Of a stretch of DNA of 64,000 nt, positions 4,759 through 14,959 are shown in pieces; the stretch's first letter is position 1, and every line of letters begins with the position of its first letter. Under the pieces are notes generated by a model, which had not been told where the DNA came from, searched no databases, and worked only from the letters and a program-made list of their open reading frames with translations. This DNA comes from Natronobacterium gregoryi SP2 (GTDB taxonomy: Archaea; Halobacteriota; Halobacteria; Halobacteriales; Natrialbaceae), in assembly GCF_000230715.2 (NCBI RefSeq), contig NC_019792.1:2232001-2296000 (forward strand), in the 5' to 3' direction. Position numbers and translations under genes: made by a program.

Positions 4759-6063
4759 TCACCACGATTCGAGGTCGCGCAACTCCGCGACCACGTCCTC
4801 GATCCCGTCGTCCTCGAGCAGGCCGCGTTCGGCGGCGACCGCGTCGACGACGGCAGGCGGTGTCACGTCGAACGTCGGATTTAGCACGTCGAGCGCGGTG
4901 TCACCGTCGTAGACCGCCGCCCGGTCGCCGGACTCGAGGTTGTGTTCCTCGCGGGTCGAGACCTTATCGGTGGCGGCGACGACGGTGACGGGAACGGCTT
5001 CGTGGCTGGCCGCGAGTGCAGCGGCGCGCGTCCCGGTCTTGTTCACGACGGCACCGTCCGGCCGAATCGTGTCGGCACCGACGAGGACGCGGTCGACAGC
5101 TTCGCGCTCGAGGACGTGTGCAACCGCTGCGTCGGTGTGGACGGTAACGGGACACTCGAGGTCCGCGGCCAGTTCCTCGGCCACGTCGACACCCTCCCGT
5201 GCCGGCCTGGATTCGGCGACGAAGACGCGCGAGGGATCGCCCTGCCGGAGTGTGTCACCGACGGTGCTGGACCGCGAGAGCGTCAGAACCGTTCCGTCGA
5301 TGACCTCGCTTGCTGTCGCCGCGGCTTCGTCGTCGGCCGCGAGCGCGCGGTCGATCCCCTCGAGCGTCGACTCGAGGACCGCACTCGCGCCGTCGTCGAG
5401 ATCAGCTTCAGCCATCACCCGATTGACTCGGTTCCGGAGGACGGCCATCGCGGGTCGGGCCTCGAGTAATCGGCCGGCCAGTTCCGCCAGTTCGTCGCGT
5501 TCGCCCTCCGGATCGACGCCGAACTCGTCGCGTTCGGCGACGAGCACTCCCGCCCGGTCCCGCAGCACCTCGAGCGCCCGAATCGAGAGGGTGGCCGCAC
5601 CGTGCTCGTCGTCCGCAGTGATCGATCGCACCGTGGGTGCGACGCGTTCGTACGCCGTCCAGAGCGTTGGCACTGTCTCGAGGTCCTCGCCAACCGCCTC
5701 GAGGATCGTCGTCGCCGGGAGCCAGGCGTACTCGTCGTGTTCCTCGCTCAGTTCGATATCGGGGTCGTCGCAGTCGAACAGAAACGGGTGGACGACCCAC
5801 TCACGCGCTGTGTCCTCGTCGGCGACTTCGACTGGCCGGCCGGCGCGGACGAACGAGACGTCCGTTTCCTCGAGGCCGGTTTCGTCCCGGATCTCGGCGA
5901 CCACCTGTTCGTCCGGGTCGCCTTCTGGGAAGCCGGAGACGCCACCCCACATTCCCCGATGGGTGTCGACGGTATCGCTACGACACAACAGGAGGGCCTT
6001 GCCTCGCCGCCGGAGGAAGGCGGTGACGACGTGGTCTGTGTCGGTTTCGTCGGAATCGTTCAT
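4759..6063 (-). CDS. Nudix hydrolase domain fused to eIF2B-like sugar-phosphate isomerase domain
   Basis: 434 aa in two domains. Residues 1-150 are Nudix: the box begins at GGVSGFPE and ends AEIRDETGL, one residue longer than the canonical spacing and with Arg to Ala and one Glu to Asp. A helical linker follows, then residues 250-425 resemble eIF2B-alpha / ribose-1,5-bisphosphate isomerase, with the hallmark GADTIRPDGAVVNKTGT. Family knowledge suggests hydrolysis of a nucleoside diphosphate compound coupled to ribose-phosphate isomerisation in nucleotide salvage; that coupling is inference. A true translation-factor role is unlikely. The gene stands alone with a long divergent spacer upstream. 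Confidence 0.85.
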   Translation of the reverse strand: MNDSDETDTDHVVTAFLRRRGKALLLCRSDTVDTHRGMWGGVSGFPEGDPDEQVVAEIRDETGLEETDVSFVRAGRPVEVADEDTAREWVVHPFLFDCDDPDIELSEEHDEYAWLPATTILEAVGEDLETVPTLWTAYERVAPTVRSITADDEHGAATLSIRALEVLRDRAGVLVAERDEFGVDPEGERDELAELAGRLLEARPAMAVLRNRVNRVMAEADLDDGASAVLESTLEGIDRALAADDEAAATASEVIDGTVLTLSRSSTVGDTLRQGDPSRVFVAESRPAREGVDVAEELAADLECPVTVHTDAAVAHVLEREAVDRVLVGADTIRPDGAVVNKTGTRAAALAASHEAVPVTVVAATDKVSTREEHNLESGDRAAVYDGDTALDVLNPTFDVTPPAVVDAVAAERGLLEDDGIEDVVAELRDLESW

Positions 6064-6376: not shown

Positions 6377-7582
6377 ATGAGTGTCGTAGACAAGATCAAG
6401 TCGATCGGGCCGGGTGCGCTCGTCGCCGCGGCGTTCGTCGGACCGGGAACGGTCACGACAGCGAGCGTGATCGGTGCGGAGTATGCCTATCTGCTCGTGT
6501 GGACGATTGCGTTCTCGATTCTGGCGACGATCGTTCTTCAGGAGATGAGCGCGCGGCTCGGATTAGTTTCGAACGAGGGGCTCGGTGAGGCGCTTCGAGA
6601 CGAATTCACGCATCCACTCCTAAAGGGTGTCGCAGTCGCGCTCGTCGTGAGCGCGATCGGCGTCGGGACGGCAGCGTTCCAGACGGGCAACATCGTCGGG
6701 GGAGCAGCAGGTCTCTCGACGATTACCGGCATCAGTGAGAACGTCTGGGGGCCGCTTATCGGCGTTGTCGCCGCTGGATTGCTGTGGACTGGTAACTACA
6801 AACTGATCGAGCGAGTCTTCGTCGGTCTCGTCGTCGTCATGGGACTGGCGTTCGTGCTCAACGCCGTCGTCGTCCGTCCAGACGTCGGGTCGTTCTCGGT
6901 CGGCCTCGTGCCCACGGTCCCTGAGGGGTCGGCCTACCTGATCGCCGGGCTCGTCGGCACGACCGTCGTCGGCTACAACCTGTTCTTGCACGCCAGTACC
7001 GTCCAGGAACGGTGGGATGGTGCCCAGGATCTCGCTGCGTGTCGGTTCGACACCGTCGGCATGGTCGTCGTCGGCGGACTCATCACGACCGCGATCGTCG
7101 TCACGGCCGCGGCCGTCTTCCCCAACGGGACACAGATCGACGACGTCGGGGCGATGGCCGACCAGCTCGAGCCCGTCTTCGGCGGCTTCGCGCTCACGTT
7201 CTTCGCGATCGGGCTGTTCGCGGCCGGGTTCACGAGCTCGATGAGTGCGCCACTTGCCGGTGCGTACGCGACTGCTGGCGCGCTCGGATGGGAACGTGAT
7301 CTGACCGCCACCCGATTTCGGGCGATCTGGATGACGATCCTGGGCGTCGGCATCGTCTTCTCGGCACTGGATTACAACCCGGTAGACGTGATCGTCTTCG
7401 CACAGGTCGCAAACGGCCTCCTGTTGCCGATCCTGGCGGTCTTTCTCATCTACGCGATGAACAACGACGAACTGCTTGGCGAACACACGAACAGCAGACT
7501 CCAGAACTTGCTCGGCGTCGCCGTCACGATCGTCGCGATCGGTATCGGCCTACAGACGCTGTACGACGTTCTCGTCCTCTAG
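6377..7582 (+). CDS. NRAMP-fold membrane transporter lacking canonical metal ligands
   Basis: 401 aa with about eleven hydrophobic segments. TM1 (GPGALVAAAFVGPGT) and TM6 (VGTTVVGYNLFLHAST) align with the SLC11/NRAMP fold. In metal-transporting members TM1 has DPGN and TM6 has a Met-Pro-His. Here the Asp, Asn, Met and His positions read Gly, Thr, Val and Tyr, so the usual manganese/iron site is gone. It is the first gene of an operon, 17 nt before hyuA. A role in importing hydantoin, oxoproline or a related organic substrate is inferred from that context. A magnesium-type NRAMP relative is an alternative, though those keep more of the site. Confidence 0.85.
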   Translation: MSVVDKIKSIGPGALVAAAFVGPGTVTTASVIGAEYAYLLVWTIAFSILATIVLQEMSARLGLVSNEGLGEALRDEFTHPLLKGVAVALVVSAIGVGTAAFQTGNIVGGAAGLSTITGISENVWGPLIGVVAAGLLWTGNYKLIERVFVGLVVVMGLAFVLNAVVVRPDVGSFSVGLVPTVPEGSAYLIAGLVGTTVVGYNLFLHASTVQERWDGAQDLAACRFDTVGMVVVGGLITTAIVVTAAAVFPNGTQIDDVGAMADQLEPVFGGFALTFFAIGLFAAGFTSSMSAPLAGAYATAGALGWERDLTATRFRAIWMTILGVGIVFSALDYNPVDVIVFAQVANGLLLPILAVFLIYAMNNDELLGEHTNSRLQNLLGVAVTIVAIGIGLQTLYDVLVL

Positions 7583-7599
7583 CACCCGTTTCGATCCAC

Positions 7600-9678
7600 A
7601 TGAACGACACAAACGACACCGATTCCCAGCAGGATATCTCGACTACCAGTATGAACGGCGAAAACCAACCGAACGACACTCGAATCGGCGTCGACGTCGG
7701 AGGGACGTTCACCGACGTCGCTCTCTCGGTCGACGACCGGCTCGTCACCGCGAAGGTGCCGACCACCGACGACCAGAGCGTCGGCGTCCTCGAGGGCATC
7801 CACAAAGCCTGCGAGCGCGGGGGGATCGACCCCGGCGAGATCGACGACTTCGCTCACGCGATGACCGTCTCGGTCAACGCTCTCTTAGAGCGTGGCGGCG
7901 CGAAGACCGCTCTCGTGACGACTGCGGGGTTCCGCGACGTCCTCGAGATTGGTCGCCAGGACCGACCAGATCTGTACGATCTCGAGGCCAAGAAACCCGA
8001 TCCACTCGTCCCGCGCGAACTGCGGTTCGAGGTCGACGAACGGACGACCGACGAGGGAGTCGAGTCCGAGGCCGACCCCGACGATGTCCGTGCTCTGGCG
8101 GCGACGATCCAGGAGCGCGACGTCGAGGCAGTTGCGGTCTGCCTGCTGCACGCCTACGCCGACACCGAGAACGAACGCGTCGTCGCGGAGACGTTGCGCG
8201 AGGAACTCGAGGTGCCGGTGTCGGCCTCTCACGAGGTGCTCGCGGAGTTCCGCGAGTTCGAGCGCACGTCGACGACGGCCGTCGACGCCTACGTCCGCCC
8301 GGCGATCGACAGCTACGTCGGCCGACTCGTCGACGAGGCCGACGACGCAGGGATTCCGGCTCCACGGATCATGCAAGCAAACGGTGGTATCGCCGACCCC
8401 GAGACCGTCCGCGAACACGCTGTCACGACGACGATGTCCGGTCCCGCGGCGGGCGTCGTCGGTGCGGCTGCGACCGTCTCCGACGACGACGTCTCGGGGC
8501 TCGTCACCTTCGACATGGGTGGCACCTCGAGCGACGTGAGCCTCGTTCGCGACGGCCAGGCCGAACGAACCACCGACGCCGAAATCGCCGGCCTGCCGAT
8601 CCGGACGCCGATGGTCGACGTCAACACCGTCGGCGCTGGCGGCGGCTCGATCGCCTGGGCCGACGCCGGCGGGGCACTCCGAGTCGGCCCCCAGTCCTCG
8701 GGTGCCGAACCCGGCCCTGCCTGTTACGGCAAGGGAGGAACGAACCCCACCGTCACCGACGCCAACGTCGTGCTTGGCTACATCGGCCCCGAGACCGAAC
8801 TCGGCGGCGAGCTGACCTTAGACGTCGAGGCAGCCCACACAGCCCTCGAGAAGTTGGCCGACGAGGTCGGCCTCGAGGGCGCACTCGAGGCCGCCCAGGG
8901 CGTCTACCGGGTCGCGAACGCGACGATGACCCGGACGATCCGCTCGGTGACCGTCGAACGCGGCCACGACCCCCGCGAGTTCGCGCTGGTCGCGTTCGGT
9001 GGTGCGGGGCCGATGCACGCCGCGGCGCTCGCCGATGCACTCGCAGTCGACCGCGTCGTCGTCCCGCGGCCAGGCGGCGTCCTCTCTGCGTTCGGCCTGC
9101 TCGCGGCCGACGAGAGCTACGACGCCGTCCGCACCGTCGGCGTCGGCCTCGAGGAGGCCGAACCGGAATCGCTCGAGGATGTCTACGACGACCTCGTCGC
9201 GGACGTGCTCGGCGACGTCTCCGAGCCGGACGCGGCGACGGTCGAACGCGCCGCAGACTGTCGGTACGCCGGCCAGAGCTTCGAACTCACCGTTCCCGTC
9301 GACGACTCCTTCGACGCCTCCGCGGTGGCAGAGCGTTTCCACGCGTCTCACGAGCGGGCCTACGGCTACGCGATGGACGAGGCGATCGAGGTCGTCAACC
9401 TGCGGACGACGGCGACCGTTCCCGGCACGGAGCCGACCGTCCGCCACGAGGGCGAAGGCGACGCGCTGGTCGGCACGCGCGAGGCGCACTTCCCCGGCAC
9501 CGGTCCGCGGGAGACGACCGTCTACGAGCGCGATCGTCTCGCACCCGGCGTGACGATCTCGGGGCCGGCGATCCTCGAGCAGGCCGAGAGTACGACCGTC
9601 GTCCCCCCGACGTGGGCAGGCGAGATTCTAACAGATGGGACGCTCGTGATGACTCGAGAGGGGGTGGACGACCGATGA
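7600..9678 (+). CDS. hyuA: Hydantoinase/oxoprolinase subunit A
   Basis: 692 aa cytoplasmic subunit with an ASKHA-type ATP-binding fold. Phosphate-binding motifs are RIGVDVGGTFTD (about residues 28-39) and VTFDMGGTSSDVS (about residue 305), followed by FGGAGPMHA near residue 468. The family couples ATP hydrolysis to opening of cyclic amides such as 5-oxoproline, hydantoin or N-methylhydantoin together with subunit B. The start is ATG 7600; an ATG at 7651 would remove a Thr/Asp/Ser-rich leader and remains possible. The stop overlaps the hyuB start (ATGA). The substrate cannot be told from sequence. Confidence 0.93.
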   Translation: MNDTNDTDSQQDISTTSMNGENQPNDTRIGVDVGGTFTDVALSVDDRLVTAKVPTTDDQSVGVLEGIHKACERGGIDPGEIDDFAHAMTVSVNALLERGGAKTALVTTAGFRDVLEIGRQDRPDLYDLEAKKPDPLVPRELRFEVDERTTDEGVESEADPDDVRALAATIQERDVEAVAVCLLHAYADTENERVVAETLREELEVPVSASHEVLAEFREFERTSTTAVDAYVRPAIDSYVGRLVDEADDAGIPAPRIMQANGGIADPETVREHAVTTTMSGPAAGVVGAAATVSDDDVSGLVTFDMGGTSSDVSLVRDGQAERTTDAEIAGLPIRTPMVDVNTVGAGGGSIAWADAGGALRVGPQSSGAEPGPACYGKGGTNPTVTDANVVLGYIGPETELGGELTLDVEAAHTALEKLADEVGLEGALEAAQGVYRVANATMTRTIRSVTVERGHDPREFALVAFGGAGPMHAAALADALAVDRVVVPRPGGVLSAFGLLAADESYDAVRTVGVGLEEAEPESLEDVYDDLVADVLGDVSEPDAATVERAADCRYAGQSFELTVPVDDSFDASAVAERFHASHERAYGYAMDEAIEVVNLRTTATVPGTEPTVRHEGEGDALVGTREAHFPGTGPRETTVYERDRLAPGVTISGPAILEQAESTTVVPPTWAGEILTDGTLVMTREGVDDR

Positions 9679-11291
9679 CCGACGCGACCGACGCGACCGA
9701 CGCGATCGATCCAGTGACGCTCGAAGTCCTTCGCAACCAACTCGAGAGCGTCGCCGAAGAGATGGGCCAGACGCTGATTCGCGGCGCGTACTCGCCGAAC
9801 ATCAAGGAACGGCGGGACTGCTCGACGGCACTGTTCGACGCGGAGGGGCGGATGATCGCTCAGGCCGAACACATCCCGGTTCACCTCGGAGCGATGCCGG
9901 CGGCCGTCGACGCCGTCCGCGACTGCGAACCCGAGCCAGGTGACGTGTTCGTCCTCAACGACCCCTTCACTGGTGGAACGCATCTGCCCGACGTGACGAT
10001 GGTGTCGGCGCTTTCGGCCGACGACGAAATCGTCGGCTACGCCGTTTCCCGTGCCCACCACGCCGACATCGGCGGGATGACTCCCGGCAGTATGCCCGCG
10101 GGCGCACGGGAGATCTACCAGGAGGGGCTGCGCCTCCCGCCGACGCGACTCGTCGAGGGTGGACAGCTCCGCGAGGATGTCCACTCGCTCGTACTCGCGA
10201 ACGTCCGCAACCCCCGCGAGCGACGTGCGGACCTGCGAGCACAGCTCGCTGCGAACGAACGTGCGGCGAACCGACTCGAGGCGCTGTTCGCCGAACACGG
10301 CCGCGAAACGGTGCTCGAGGCGTTCGACGCCGTCATCCACTACTCTCGCGAGCGGATCGTCGACGAGATCGCCGACCTGCCGGACGGCAGCTACGAGGCG
10401 ACCGACGTCTTAGAGGGTGACGGCGTCACCGACGACGACTTCGAGATTTCGGTGACAGTGACGATCGACGGCGAGACGATCGACGTCGACTTCGCAGGCA
10501 CCGACGACCAGCTCGCGGGTAATCTCAACGCGCCGCTTGCGGTCGCCAAGAGCGCGGTCTACTTCGTCGTTCGCTGTGTCACCGATCCCGAGATCCCGCC
10601 GAACCACGGCTGCTACGAACCCGTCAGCGTCCACGCGCCCGCGGGAACGCTGCTCAACCCCGAGCCACCCGCGGCCGTCGTCGGTGGCAACGTCGAGACC
10701 AGCCAGCGCGTGACCGACGTCGTCTTTACCGCACTCGCGAAGGCCGCGCCGGATCGCGTGCCCGCCCAGGGCCAGGGGACGATGAACAACCTGACCATCG
10801 GCGCGCGCGACGGCTCGTTCACCTACTACGAGACGATCGGCGGCGGCTTCGGCGCCCGAGCGGACCGCGACGGGATGGACGGCGTCCAGGTCGGGATGAC
10901 CAACACGCTGAACACGCCCGTCGAGTCGATCGAGACCGAGTACCCGCTTCGAGTCGATCGGTACGCGCTCCGGGAGAACAGCGGCGGTCGCGGCCGGTAT
11001 CGAGGAGGGCTCGGCCTCGAGCGCACCGTCACCGTCGAGAAAGACGCGACCGTTTCGCTGCTGACAGAACGGCGTCGCCACGCGCCGAAGGGCGTCGCCG
11101 GCGGCGAGGACGGTGCGACCGGCCAGAACCTGATCGACGGCCAGTCGGTGCCCGCGAAGACGACCGTCGATGTCGAGGCTGGGACGACCGTGACGGTCCG
11201 CACCCCCGGCGGCGGCGGACACGGCGACCCCGACGAGCGCGACGAGGAGGCGCTCGAGGGAGACCGTCGCGGCGGCAAACGGACCGAGTGA
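9675..11291 (+). CDS. hyuB: Hydantoinase/oxoprolinase subunit B
   Basis: 538 aa, PF02538 family. It opens with the typical [21 protein letters not shown] and has [23 protein letters not shown] and a C-terminal glycine-rich [10 protein letters not shown]. It pairs with subunit A to hydrolyse a cyclic amide with ATP. The start is fixed by the four-base ATGA overlap with hyuA. The frame stays open far upstream, but that part is antisense-like noise within hyuA. The next gene begins 4 nt after the stop, so all four genes from 6377 should be one transcript. Confidence 0.93.
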
Positions 11292-11295
11292 ACCC

Positions 11296-12021
11296 ATGTC
11301 GACTCGCGGCGCTCCGACCGGCCAACTCGGACTGATCGTCCCCTCGTCGAACACGACCGCCGAACCCGAGTTCCGAGCGGCGCTATCCGACTCGGTAACC
11401 GTCCACGGCGCACGAATGTCCCTCGAGTCGGTCACCGTCGACGCACTCGACGCGATGAGCAACGACGTTACCCGGGCGGCCGAACTGCTCGGCCACGCCG
11501 ACGTCGACGCCGTCGCCTACGCCTGTACCACCGGAAGCCTGCTGCATGGCCCCGGCTTCGACGCCGCACTCGAGGCAGAAATCGGGACGGCCGCCGACGC
11601 ACCCGCCGTCGCCACCGCACGCTCGGTCGTCCGGGCACTCGAGGCGCTCGACGTCGACCGGATCGCTGTCCAGACCCCCTATACCGCCGACCTCGACGAG
11701 AAGGAACGCGAGTTCCTCGAGGAGTCGGGCATCGAGGTCACGAGCATCGACGGCCGTGGCATCGAGGCGAACGTCGAGATCGGTGCGCTGACGCCAGAGG
11801 ACGCAACCGAACAGGCTCGCGAGGGAGTCGACGCCGCGGACGTCGACGCCGTCTTCGTCTCCTGTACGAACTACCGCTCGCTCGCCGCGGTCGAGGAACT
11901 CGAGAACGACCTCGGCGTCCCCGTGGTGACGAGCAACGGCGCGACGCTGTGGGACGTCGCTCGAGTGGCAGGGCTCGAGGTCGACGGCCCCGGAACGTTG
12001 TTCGAGCAGGCTCGCTCGTAG
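11296..12021 (+). CDS. Maleate isomerase / arylmalonate decarboxylase-like Asp/Glu/hydantoin racemase-superfamily enzyme
   Basis: 241 aa with the two catalytic cysteines of the superfamily: Cys77 in YACTTGS and Cys190 in VSCTNYRS. The 113-residue spacing is close to that of maleate cis-trans isomerases. An N-terminal PSSNTT motif likely binds a carboxylate. The last gene of the hydantoinase operon; by analogy it may racemise hydantoins or carbamoyl amino acids, or isomerise a dicarboxylate so that both enantiomers can be degraded. The specific reaction is unknown. Confidence 0.85.
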   Translation: MSTRGAPTGQLGLIVPSSNTTAEPEFRAALSDSVTVHGARMSLESVTVDALDAMSNDVTRAAELLGHADVDAVAYACTTGSLLHGPGFDAALEAEIGTAADAPAVATARSVVRALEALDVDRIAVQTPYTADLDEKEREFLEESGIEVTSIDGRGIEANVEIGALTPEDATEQAREGVDAADVDAVFVSCTNYRSLAAVEELENDLGVPVVTSNGATLWDVARVAGLEVDGPGTLFEQARS

Positions 12022-13178: not shown

Positions 13179-13955
13179 ATGGAACTGACGCCAGTGACGG
13201 ACCTGCCCGAGATCCGTCCCGGCGACGACCTCGCCGAGTTGATCGTCGATCGGGCCGGGGACGACCTCGAGTCGGCCGAGGTGCTCACCGTCGCCAGCAC
13301 GGTCGTCTCGAAGGCGGAGGATCGGACGGCCGACCTCGCGGAGTATCCAGTCAGTGGGCGGGCCCGCGAAATCGCCGACCGGATCGAGGATGTGGCGGGC
13401 GAGCAGAAAGATCCGCGGTTCGCACAGGCCGTTCTCGAAGAGAGTACGGAACTGCTGATCGACGCGCCGTTCCTGTTGACAGAGACGCGCTTCGGACACA
13501 TTACGGTCAACGCGGGGATCGATCGGTCGAACGTGCCGGAGCACGACCTGCTGTTGTTGCCGAAGCGACCGGGCGAGAGCGCCGAGCGGATTCGACGGGG
13601 GCTCGAGGACCGCGGCATCGAAGACGTCGCGGTGATCGTCACCGACACCTCGGGTCGGCCGTTCCGACACGGGCAACGCGGCGTCGCGATCGGCTGGACG
13701 GGGATGCCCGCGAGCCGGGACTGGCGTGGCGAACGAGACCGCGACGGACGAGAACTCGGCGTCACCGTCCAGTCGGTCGTCGACGAACTCGCGGCGGCGG
13801 CGAATCTCGTCACCGGCGAGGGAGCCGACGGCACGCCCGCTGTCGTCGTTCGCGACTGGGAGTTCGGCGACCTCGAGGGAAGCGACGAACTGTTCCGGTC
13901 GGTCGAGGACGACCTCGTCCGACAGGCACTGCGAGAGTGGGAGTTCCAGCAATGA
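13179..13955 (+). CDS. cofE: Coenzyme F420-0:L-glutamate ligase
   Basis: 258 aa, full length for archaeal CofE. It adds gamma-linked glutamates to F420-0 using GTP. Family signatures visible include VLTVASTVVSKAEDR, ETRFGHITVNAGIDRSN and VIVTDTSGRPFRHGQRGVA, which carry nucleotide- and metal-binding residues. It overlaps the next gene by four bases (ATGA), and that gene is a probable F420-dependent enzyme, a sensible pairing. Haloarchaea are known F420 producers. Confidence 0.93.
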   Translation: MELTPVTDLPEIRPGDDLAELIVDRAGDDLESAEVLTVASTVVSKAEDRTADLAEYPVSGRAREIADRIEDVAGEQKDPRFAQAVLEESTELLIDAPFLLTETRFGHITVNAGIDRSNVPEHDLLLLPKRPGESAERIRRGLEDRGIEDVAVIVTDTSGRPFRHGQRGVAIGWTGMPASRDWRGERDRDGRELGVTVQSVVDELAAAANLVTGEGADGTPAVVVRDWEFGDLEGSDELFRSVEDDLVRQALREWEFQQ

Positions 13956-14959
13956 CGCACAATACCGACGAACCGACCTGGGGTATCGAACTGACACCCG
14001 AACACTCGCCCGACCGGATGGCGTCGCTCGCGGCACTCGCCGAAGACGAGGGGTTCGACGTGGCCTTCACGAGCAGCCACTACTTCAACCGCGATCCGTT
14101 CGTCGTCTGCTCGCGGATGGCGGAAACGACCGACGAGATCGGGCTGGGGCCGGGGATCGTCAACCCTTACGAGACCCATCCGGTACGGCTGGCCGCCCAG
14201 ACGGCGACGATCGACGAAGTCAGCGACGGCCGCGCCGTCTTCGGCGTCGGCGCTGGCGACCGATCGTCGCTGGCGAACCTCGGCATCGAGCACGACCGAC
14301 CGCTGCGGCGGGTCCTCGAGACGTTCGACATCGCCCGCAAGCTGTGGGCTGGCGAGACCGTCACCCACGACGGGACCTTCACTGCCCAGGACGCCTCGCT
14401 GAACCTCGAGCCCACATCGGACGAGATTCCGGTCTACGTCGGCGCGCAGGGGCCACACATGCTCCGGATGAGCGGCAAGCACGCCGACGGCGTGTTGATC
14501 AACGCCGCTCATCCGCGCGACCTCGAGTGGTCGGCGGGACAGATCGAGCAGGGACTGGCGGATCGGCCGGACGACTACGGCGCGTTCGAGTCGCTCGCGT
14601 TCGCGAGCGTCAGCGTCGCCGCAGAGGAAAAGGAGGCCCGCGAAGCCGCGCGCCCGCCGGTGGCCTTCATCGTCGGCGGCGCAGCCGATCCGGTGCTCGA
14701 GCGACACGATGTCGACCGCGAGACGGCAGCGACGATCAGTGAAGCGCTCGAGGCGGGCGACCTCCCCGAGGCGTTCGGCCACGTCACACCCGAGATGATC
14801 GACGCGTTCTGTATCGCGGGGACGACGGCAACGGTTGCCGAACGGTTCGAAGCGGCACTCGAGTACGTCGACGGAATCGTCGTCGGCTCGCCGCTGGGGC
14901 CGGATCTCGAGGATGCGATCGAACGGGCGGGCGAGGCACTCGATCGGGCGACCGAGTAG
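13952..14959 (+). CDS. mer: F420-dependent luciferase-like reductase (Mer-type)
   Basis: 335 aa luciferase-like monooxygenase fold, closest in pattern to 5,10-methylenetetrahydromethanopterin reductase: WGIELTPEHSP start, FTSSHYFNRDPFV, GLGPGIVNPYETHPV and VYVGAQGPHMLRMSG. It would reduce a folate- or pterin-bound one-carbon unit with F420H2. The ATG at 13952 overlaps the cofE stop; an earlier GTG at 13937 is less likely. In a non-methanogen the C1 carrier is probably a folate, so the exact substrate is uncertain. Confidence 0.85.
   Translation: MTHNTDEPTWGIELTPEHSPDRMASLAALAEDEGFDVAFTSSHYFNRDPFVVCSRMAETTDEIGLGPGIVNPYETHPVRLAAQTATIDEVSDGRAVFGVGAGDRSSLANLGIEHDRPLRRVLETFDIARKLWAGETVTHDGTFTAQDASLNLEPTSDEIPVYVGAQGPHMLRMSGKHADGVLINAAHPRDLEWSAGQIEQGLADRPDDYGAFESLAFASVSVAAEEKEAREAARPPVAFIVGGAADPVLERHDVDRETAATISEALEAGDLPEAFGHVTPEMIDAFCIAGTTATVAERFEAALEYVDGIVVGSPLGPDLEDAIERAGEALDRATE

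Follow-up and report, generated by a model that had tools for sequence, protein, structure and literature searches.

An NRAMP-related carrier of non-metal type, linked to lactam-opening enzymes in haloarchaea and bacteria, is a candidate 5-oxoproline importer

Here, we analyze a gene for an NRAMP-related carrier in Natronobacterium gregoryi SP2, which lies in a stretch of 64,000 nucleotides (contig NC_019792.1, positions 2,232,001 to 2,296,000; referred to here as the window) and heads an operon with hyuA, hyuB, and a racemase-like gene. From its binding site and its gene neighbors across archaea and bacteria, the carrier is probably an NRAMP-fold secondary transporter that imports a small cyclic amide, either neutral or anionic, for ring opening by HyuAB; 5-oxoproline (pyroglutamate) is the likeliest candidate. 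The evidence that carries this reading is that the same carrier is found beside two nonhomologous ATP-dependent lactamases, HyuAB and PxpABC, which points to a lactam as the substrate and to 5-oxoproline as the most likely one.

Results

The carrier heads a compact operon of four genes.

6377-7582, forward strand: predicted NRAMP-related secondary transporter, 401 amino acids, GPGT/GN/VGY type (PF01566, 1.5e-96)
7600-9678, forward strand: HyuA, ATP-dependent hydantoinase/oxoprolinase alpha subunit, 692 amino acids (PF01968, 6e-96; PF05378, 3.9e-48)
9675-11291, forward strand: HyuB, ring-opening beta subunit, 538 amino acids (PF02538, 4.8e-210)
11296-12021, forward strand: Asp/Glu racemase superfamily protein (maleate isomerase/arylmalonate decarboxylase/EutA-like), 241 amino acids (PF17645, 1.3e-38)

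The carrier stop codon is separated from the hyuA start by 17 nt, hyuA and hyuB overlap by 4 nt, and 4 nt separate hyuB from the racemase-like gene. These coordinates bear out the operon described in an earlier reading of this DNA made from its letters alone (the sequence-only reading). That reading was also right to place the carrier on the NRAMP (SLC11) scaffold, as seen from the PF01566 match and from the predicted NRAMP (LeuT-type) fold. The AlphaFold2 model, built on a 50-sequence alignment, has a predicted local distance difference test score of 91.3 and a predicted template modeling score of 0.90. Its best solved match is EleNRMT (template modeling score, 0.88), and the closest NRAMP structures score 0.83 to 0.88.

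Alignment of the carrier with the canonical metal transporter DraNramp placed Gly22 at D56, Thr25 at N59, Val198 at M230, and Tyr200 at H232, exactly the four replacements that the sequence-only reading had listed. Asn105 stands at E134 in transmembrane helix 3 (TM3), and Gly199 stands at P231. The codons concerned are as follows.

6440-6451, forward strand: G22-P23-G24-T25 (TM1), where the metal-binding DPGN would stand
6686-6691, forward strand: G104-N105 (TM3), with N105 at the DraNramp Glu134 position
6968-6976, forward strand: V198-G199-Y200 (TM6), at the Met-Pro-His position
7403-7414, forward strand: Q343-V344-A345-N346 (TM10), with Q343 and N346 as conserved polar pocket candidates

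Among 122 members of the clade (41 haloarchaeal and 81 bacterial), Gly22, Pro23, Gly24, Val198, Tyr200, and Gln343 are invariant, although for the 80 loci of the bacterial scan (L100-L179) this conservation is partly circular, since a match to one or both of two motif patterns was required of each. No such patterns were used in gathering the haloarchaeal ortholog set. Asn346 is conserved, position 25 is Thr or Ser, and Asn105 is kept in 120 of the 122 and replaced by Asp in the other two. Position 199 is Gly in haloarchaeal members and Pro in nearly all bacterial ones. Apart from the two Asp105 residues, the metal-binding positions thus contain no acid, Met, or His, and the site appears to be of a non-metal type that is kept throughout the clade. 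Many members have Glu at position 102 (Asp131 in DraNramp), where the N. gregoryi carrier and its relatives have Gln, which suggests that the mode of ion coupling may not be uniform across the clade.

Where canonical SLC11 proteins have DPGN in TM1 and MPH in TM6, the carrier has GPGT and VGY, and both are invariant in its haloarchaeal orthologs. Loss of the metal site is not peculiar to this gene. DPGN and MPH are missing from every haloarchaeal PF01566 protein examined, including two further copies in the N. gregoryi genome (C1:1089606-1090772 and C1:2710839-2712008), where the DPGN position reads GPAT and GSGS. No canonical NRAMP was found in the N. gregoryi genome.

Orthologs of the carrier were found in 38 of 145 Halobacteria genomes, N. 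gregoryi included, at 53 to 86% identity; paralogues follow after a clear gap at about 31%. Nearly all orthologs (36/38) directly precede a hyuA-hyuB pair of the same orientation, compared with none of 23 paralogue loci (Fisher test, p = 2e-14, computed with 22 paralogue loci). Haloarcula hispanica and Haloferax mediterranei are among the haloarchaea that carry the operon. The linkage of carrier and hyuAB is not chance, and the gene order holds down to 60 to 65% identity across several families. The racemase-like gene adjoins the carrier in 23 of the 38 loci and was detected at 0 of 20 hyuAB loci that have no adjacent carrier (detection limit, 1e-8). At one locus (L041, genome G076), the carrier and the racemase-like gene stand together with hyuAB elsewhere in the genome (L199); the gene after hyuAB there presumably encodes a DUF1028-like protein.

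HyuB was found in 135 of the 145 haloarchaeal genomes and PxpC in 15, and the same search did not find PxpC in N. gregoryi. Mutual exclusion of PxpABC and NRAMP-HyuAB within haloarchaea was considered and rejected, as several genomes carry both. In Natrialbaceae, hyuAB has the same flanking genes (an IF-2B-family gene, cofE, and mer) whether or not the carrier and racemase-like genes are there, and in a second genome of the genus (G084) hyuAB is syntenic but has neither. These two genes therefore behave as a cassette beside hyuAB, one that seems to have been inserted for uptake alongside an enzyme pair that nearly all haloarchaea own. The flanks in N. gregoryi, both outside the operon, are as follows.

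4759-6063, reverse strand: divergent IF-2B-family gene (PF01008, 1.1e-46)
13179-14959, forward strand: cofE (F420-0:gamma-glutamyl ligase) and a mer-like F420 reductase gene, syntenic

The IF-2B-family gene is syntenic with hyuAB at six Natrialbaceae loci (L054-L057, L060, L063) and at nine that lack the NRAMP gene (L180-L187, L198). The IF-2B-family domain of the N. gregoryi protein comprises residues 153 to 417; its N-terminal extension resembles a NUDIX hydrolase, with no Pfam score for that part. Just upstream of the carrier in Haloferax mediterranei, Halocatena salina, and Natrononativus is a CopG-type ribbon-helix-helix gene, possibly a local regulator. It stays there even where hyuAB is missing, and none was seen at this position in N. 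gregoryi.

Bacterial members of the clade were sampled in a scan of genome contigs that used an alignment headed by a relative from Pseudoalteromonas; it yielded 80 loci, 2 of them haloarchaeal. Both pxpB and pxpC lie near the carrier in 32 of these 80, a fraction that is not a clade-wide estimate because loci were selected for peptide motifs and for their similarity to a single Pseudoalteromonas protein. In most cases, the genes are directly downstream in the order NRAMP-pxpA-pxpB-pxpC, and representative neighbors were named PxpA, PxpB, and 5-oxoprolinase/urea amidolyase (PxpC-type) by NCBIfam. Two Bacteroidota metagenome-assembled genomes have the carrier and, just downstream, a fused HyuAB of 1,251 amino acids, whose domain order is that of the eukaryotic 5-oxoprolinase. 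Few members of the clade were present in the Bacillales and Actinomycetes genomes searched. The genome of Alkalihalobacillus algicola contains two pxpABC clusters; a YcsG-like carrier accompanies one and a clade member the other, which makes the two well suited to side-by-side comparison. On a plasmid of Neorhizobium petrolearium, a gene of the dihydrodipicolinate synthase family is followed by a GPGN-type NRAMP-related carrier, which may represent a further organic-solute branch.

Haloarchaeal members formed one group in three trees (support, 99, 100/99, and 100/100), and this group joins Pxp-linked proteins of Alkalihalobacillus and Natroniella (98/96). The two Hyu-linked Bacteroidota carriers are placed among Pxp-linked Bacteroidales. 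A single clade of all Hyu-linked members, and with it one origin of the hyuAB pairing, was rejected by the approximately unbiased (AU) test (p-AU = 1.5e-11), so pairing of the carrier with Hyu-type enzymes has occurred two or more times. In the best tree, the clade and the YcsG-like proteins are separate, strongly supported groups; with 22 to 25% identity between them, direct orthology to the YcsG branch is not supported. With this small tree, neither union of the clade with YcsG-like proteins (p-AU = 0.26) nor union with metal carriers (p-AU = 0.45) was rejected.

HyuA and HyuB contain the Hydantoinase_A, Hydant_A_N, and Hydantoinase_B domains, and the ATP motif DxGGT reads DVGGT. The best solved relatives of HyuA are 7hk5 (N-methylhydantoinase) and 6yra_A (caprolactamase). 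Alignment of HyuB to 7hk5 and 6yra_B showed that the Asp-His-Asp-His metal site is kept and that the vicinal Cys pair of caprolactamase is absent. No 5-oxoprolinase equivalog of the Hyu (OPLAH) type was among the NCBIfam matches, and the HyuAB sequence does not separate 5-oxoprolinase from hydantoinases. The racemase-like protein has PF01177 and PF17645, retains both Cys motifs (ACTTG and SCTN), and matches the maleate isomerase 2xec at 3.8e-27.

Discussion

PxpABC and HyuAB are not homologous and lack similarity (PMC8453981). Their common ground is chemistry, the ATP-dependent opening of a lactam ring, and this favors one substrate for both, delivered by the carrier. If so, 5-oxoproline or a close lactam would enter the cell through the NRAMP-related carrier, HyuA would activate the ring amide with ATP, and the metal site of HyuB would open the ring to yield glutamate (or the corresponding linear amino acid). 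The racemase-like protein may feed the D form into this pathway. In amino acid carriers of the amino acid-polyamine-organocation (APC) superfamily, a Gly-X-Gly turn binds the carboxylate of the substrate; G22-P23-G24 in TM1 of the carrier could act in the same way, while N105, Y200, Q343, and N346 may contact the ring. Both the transport function and 5-oxoproline as the HyuAB substrate are inferred here.

The sequence-only reading had proposed an importer for hydantoin, oxoproline, or a related ring compound in place of a metal. The non-metal site throughout the clade, the strict haloarchaeal linkage to hyuAB, and the bacterial linkage to PxpABC all point toward a cyclic amide, while hydantoin as such gained no specific support. 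That reading named, as a finding that would speak against it, close homologues generally distant from hydantoinase genes. Haloarchaeal orthologs are near hyuAB almost without exception, and most of the sampled bacterial relatives are not; many of the latter, however, are near pxpABC, which strengthens the case for a lactam.

Several observations weigh against 5-oxoproline import. Neither enzyme is adjacent in about 44 of the 80 bacterial loci, mainly in Gammaproteobacteria, and the selective sampling described above bears on all of these counts. Two haloarchaeal orthologs, L041 and one on a Natrononativus plasmid (L078), have no hyuAB nearby. HyuAB without the carrier is common in haloarchaea, so the enzyme also has a role apart from uptake. 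Substrates of the HyuAB family vary (5-oxoproline, hydantoins, and caprolactam), and homologous carboxylases exist as well. Finally, two NRAMP-related carriers from operons of this kind, YcsG (also called MntG) and MumT, reportedly boost the Mn level of cells (PMC10448178, PMC5050338).

The breadth of HyuAB substrates raises the possibility that the carrier imports another ring compound, such as hydantoin, creatinine, N-methylhydantoin, or a lactam other than 5-oxoproline; the racemase-like protein would then be a racemase of the hydantoin type. The N-methylhydantoinase name of the best solved HyuA relative and the frequent presence of the racemase superfamily gene beside the carrier fit this idea. 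However, PxpABC, the partner of the sister members in bacteria, has been characterized as a 5-oxoprolinase, and near-universal HyuAB in haloarchaea better fits an unavoidable metabolite such as 5-oxoproline than a rare nutrient. We therefore consider another ring compound to be rather unlikely.

Somewhat less probable still is that the carrier imports a divalent metal as a cofactor for HyuB (in bacteria, for PxpA), so that the linkage would reflect cofactor supply and not substrate uptake. The Asp-His-Asp-His site, which N. gregoryi HyuB retains, is essential in HyuB-type subunits, whose residue roles have been described (PMC8453981); the Mn reports for YcsG and MumT point the same way, and EleNRMT transports Mg2+ and Mn2+ despite a changed site (PMC8806188). 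EleNRMT, however, keeps the TM1 Asp and the TM3 Glu, whereas the clade has no acid, Met, or His at the metal-site positions beyond Asp105 in two members. Glu102 occurs in many members, yet it is Gln in the N. gregoryi carrier, and in most haloarchaea HyuAB occurs without such an importer. That the linkage lacks functional coupling, a generalist or unrelated carrier being co-transcribed with hyuAB by descent, is very improbable: haloarchaeal orthologs are of single origin and so do not represent 36 independent events, and some clade members stand alone, but gene order is kept across several families down to 60 to 65% identity, and the pairing extends to nonhomologous lactamases and arose two or more times for the Hyu type.

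With 5-oxoproline import as the preferred reading, the direction of change within the family can be considered. The sequence-only reading took this to be a branch that had changed from metal to organic substrates, and this was not supported. In a published rooted tree, NRAMP-related proteins, including the "G-motif" groups, are paraphyletic to canonical NRAMPs and mostly uncharacterized (Ray, Berry and Gaudet 2026, PMC12873925), and it may be metal binding that is derived; our own tree leaves the clade unplaced relative to metal carriers. A tentative scenario, which we hold to be possible but not the likelier outcome, is that small cyclic amino acid derivatives, not metals, were the older NRAMP substrates. 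The G-motif branches (this clade, YcsG/PxpT, and the haloarchaeal GSGS, GAGS, and GPAT proteins) would then carry organic solutes and retain a Gly-X-Gly site of the APC type, metal binding would have arisen within them by a change of Gly to Asp in TM1, and the clade described here would be an archaeal 5-oxoproline importer that paired with Hyu-type enzymes on at least two occasions.

The annotation of most NRAMP-related proteins is "divalent metal transporter," and YcsG alone has two contradictory published functions. Association of one carrier with two nonhomologous lactamases provides an argument from genome comparison that is independent of either YcsG experiment, and it points to residues that can be tested (G22, N105, Y200, and N346). 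If 5-oxoproline import is correct, many archaeal and bacterial genes would be reannotated from metal uptake to 5-oxoproline uptake.

Comparison with known systems

Canonical NRAMP/MntH proteins (DraNramp and BfraNramp) have the same fold as the carrier and 24 to 27% identity to it, but none of their metal- and proton-site Asp, Asn, Met, His, and Glu residues is kept. EleNRMT and related Mg2+ transporters, also noncanonical and NRAMP-related, include the best fold match; EleNRMT has DAGG and TFSE where the carrier has GPGT and QTGN. The NRMT motifs, DxxG in TM1 and TxxA/T in TM6 (PMC8806188), are absent from the carrier, which has no Asp and a Thr for the Gly in TM1, and TTVV in TM6. Among the enzymes, caprolactamase CapAB belongs to the same family and shares the metal tetrad with HyuB, but it has the vicinal Cys pair that N. 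gregoryi HyuB lacks, and the operon enzymes fall below the CapA and CapB equivalog cutoffs.

The G-motif groups (PMC12873925) belong to the same general class as the carrier, lacking DPGN and MPH, and G-motif 3 contains YcsG/MntG. The YcsG-like proteins of Bacillales pxp operons share PF01566, the TM1 GPG, the TM3 GN, Tyr200 in TM6, and Asn346 in TM10 with the carrier; they differ in having GPGF and GGY, and Gly at the Gln343 position. Sequence search revealed no solved YcsG structure, and the fold search listed an integrative model (9a52). MumT of Acinetobacter baumannii, whose operon is related, has been described as an Mn importer (PMC5050338). YcsG of Bacillus subtilis has been reported as an Mn importer, with the 5-oxoproline evidence called open to polar effects (Ogura et al., PMC10448178); it is required for growth on 5-oxoproline according to PMC13274462, which cites Niehaus 2017. 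PxpT of Corynebacterium glutamicum, also NRAMP-related, is likewise required for growth on 5-oxoproline (PMC13274462). NRAMP-related 5-oxoproline carriers are therefore already published as a general idea. YcsG and PxpT are linked to pxpABC, as are the Pxp-linked bacterial members of the clade, whereas haloarchaeal members are linked to hyuAB instead. As far as the searched literature shows, three things are new here: an archaeal branch linked to hyuAB, the distinctness of this branch from YcsG, and the repeated pairing with nonhomologous lactamases.

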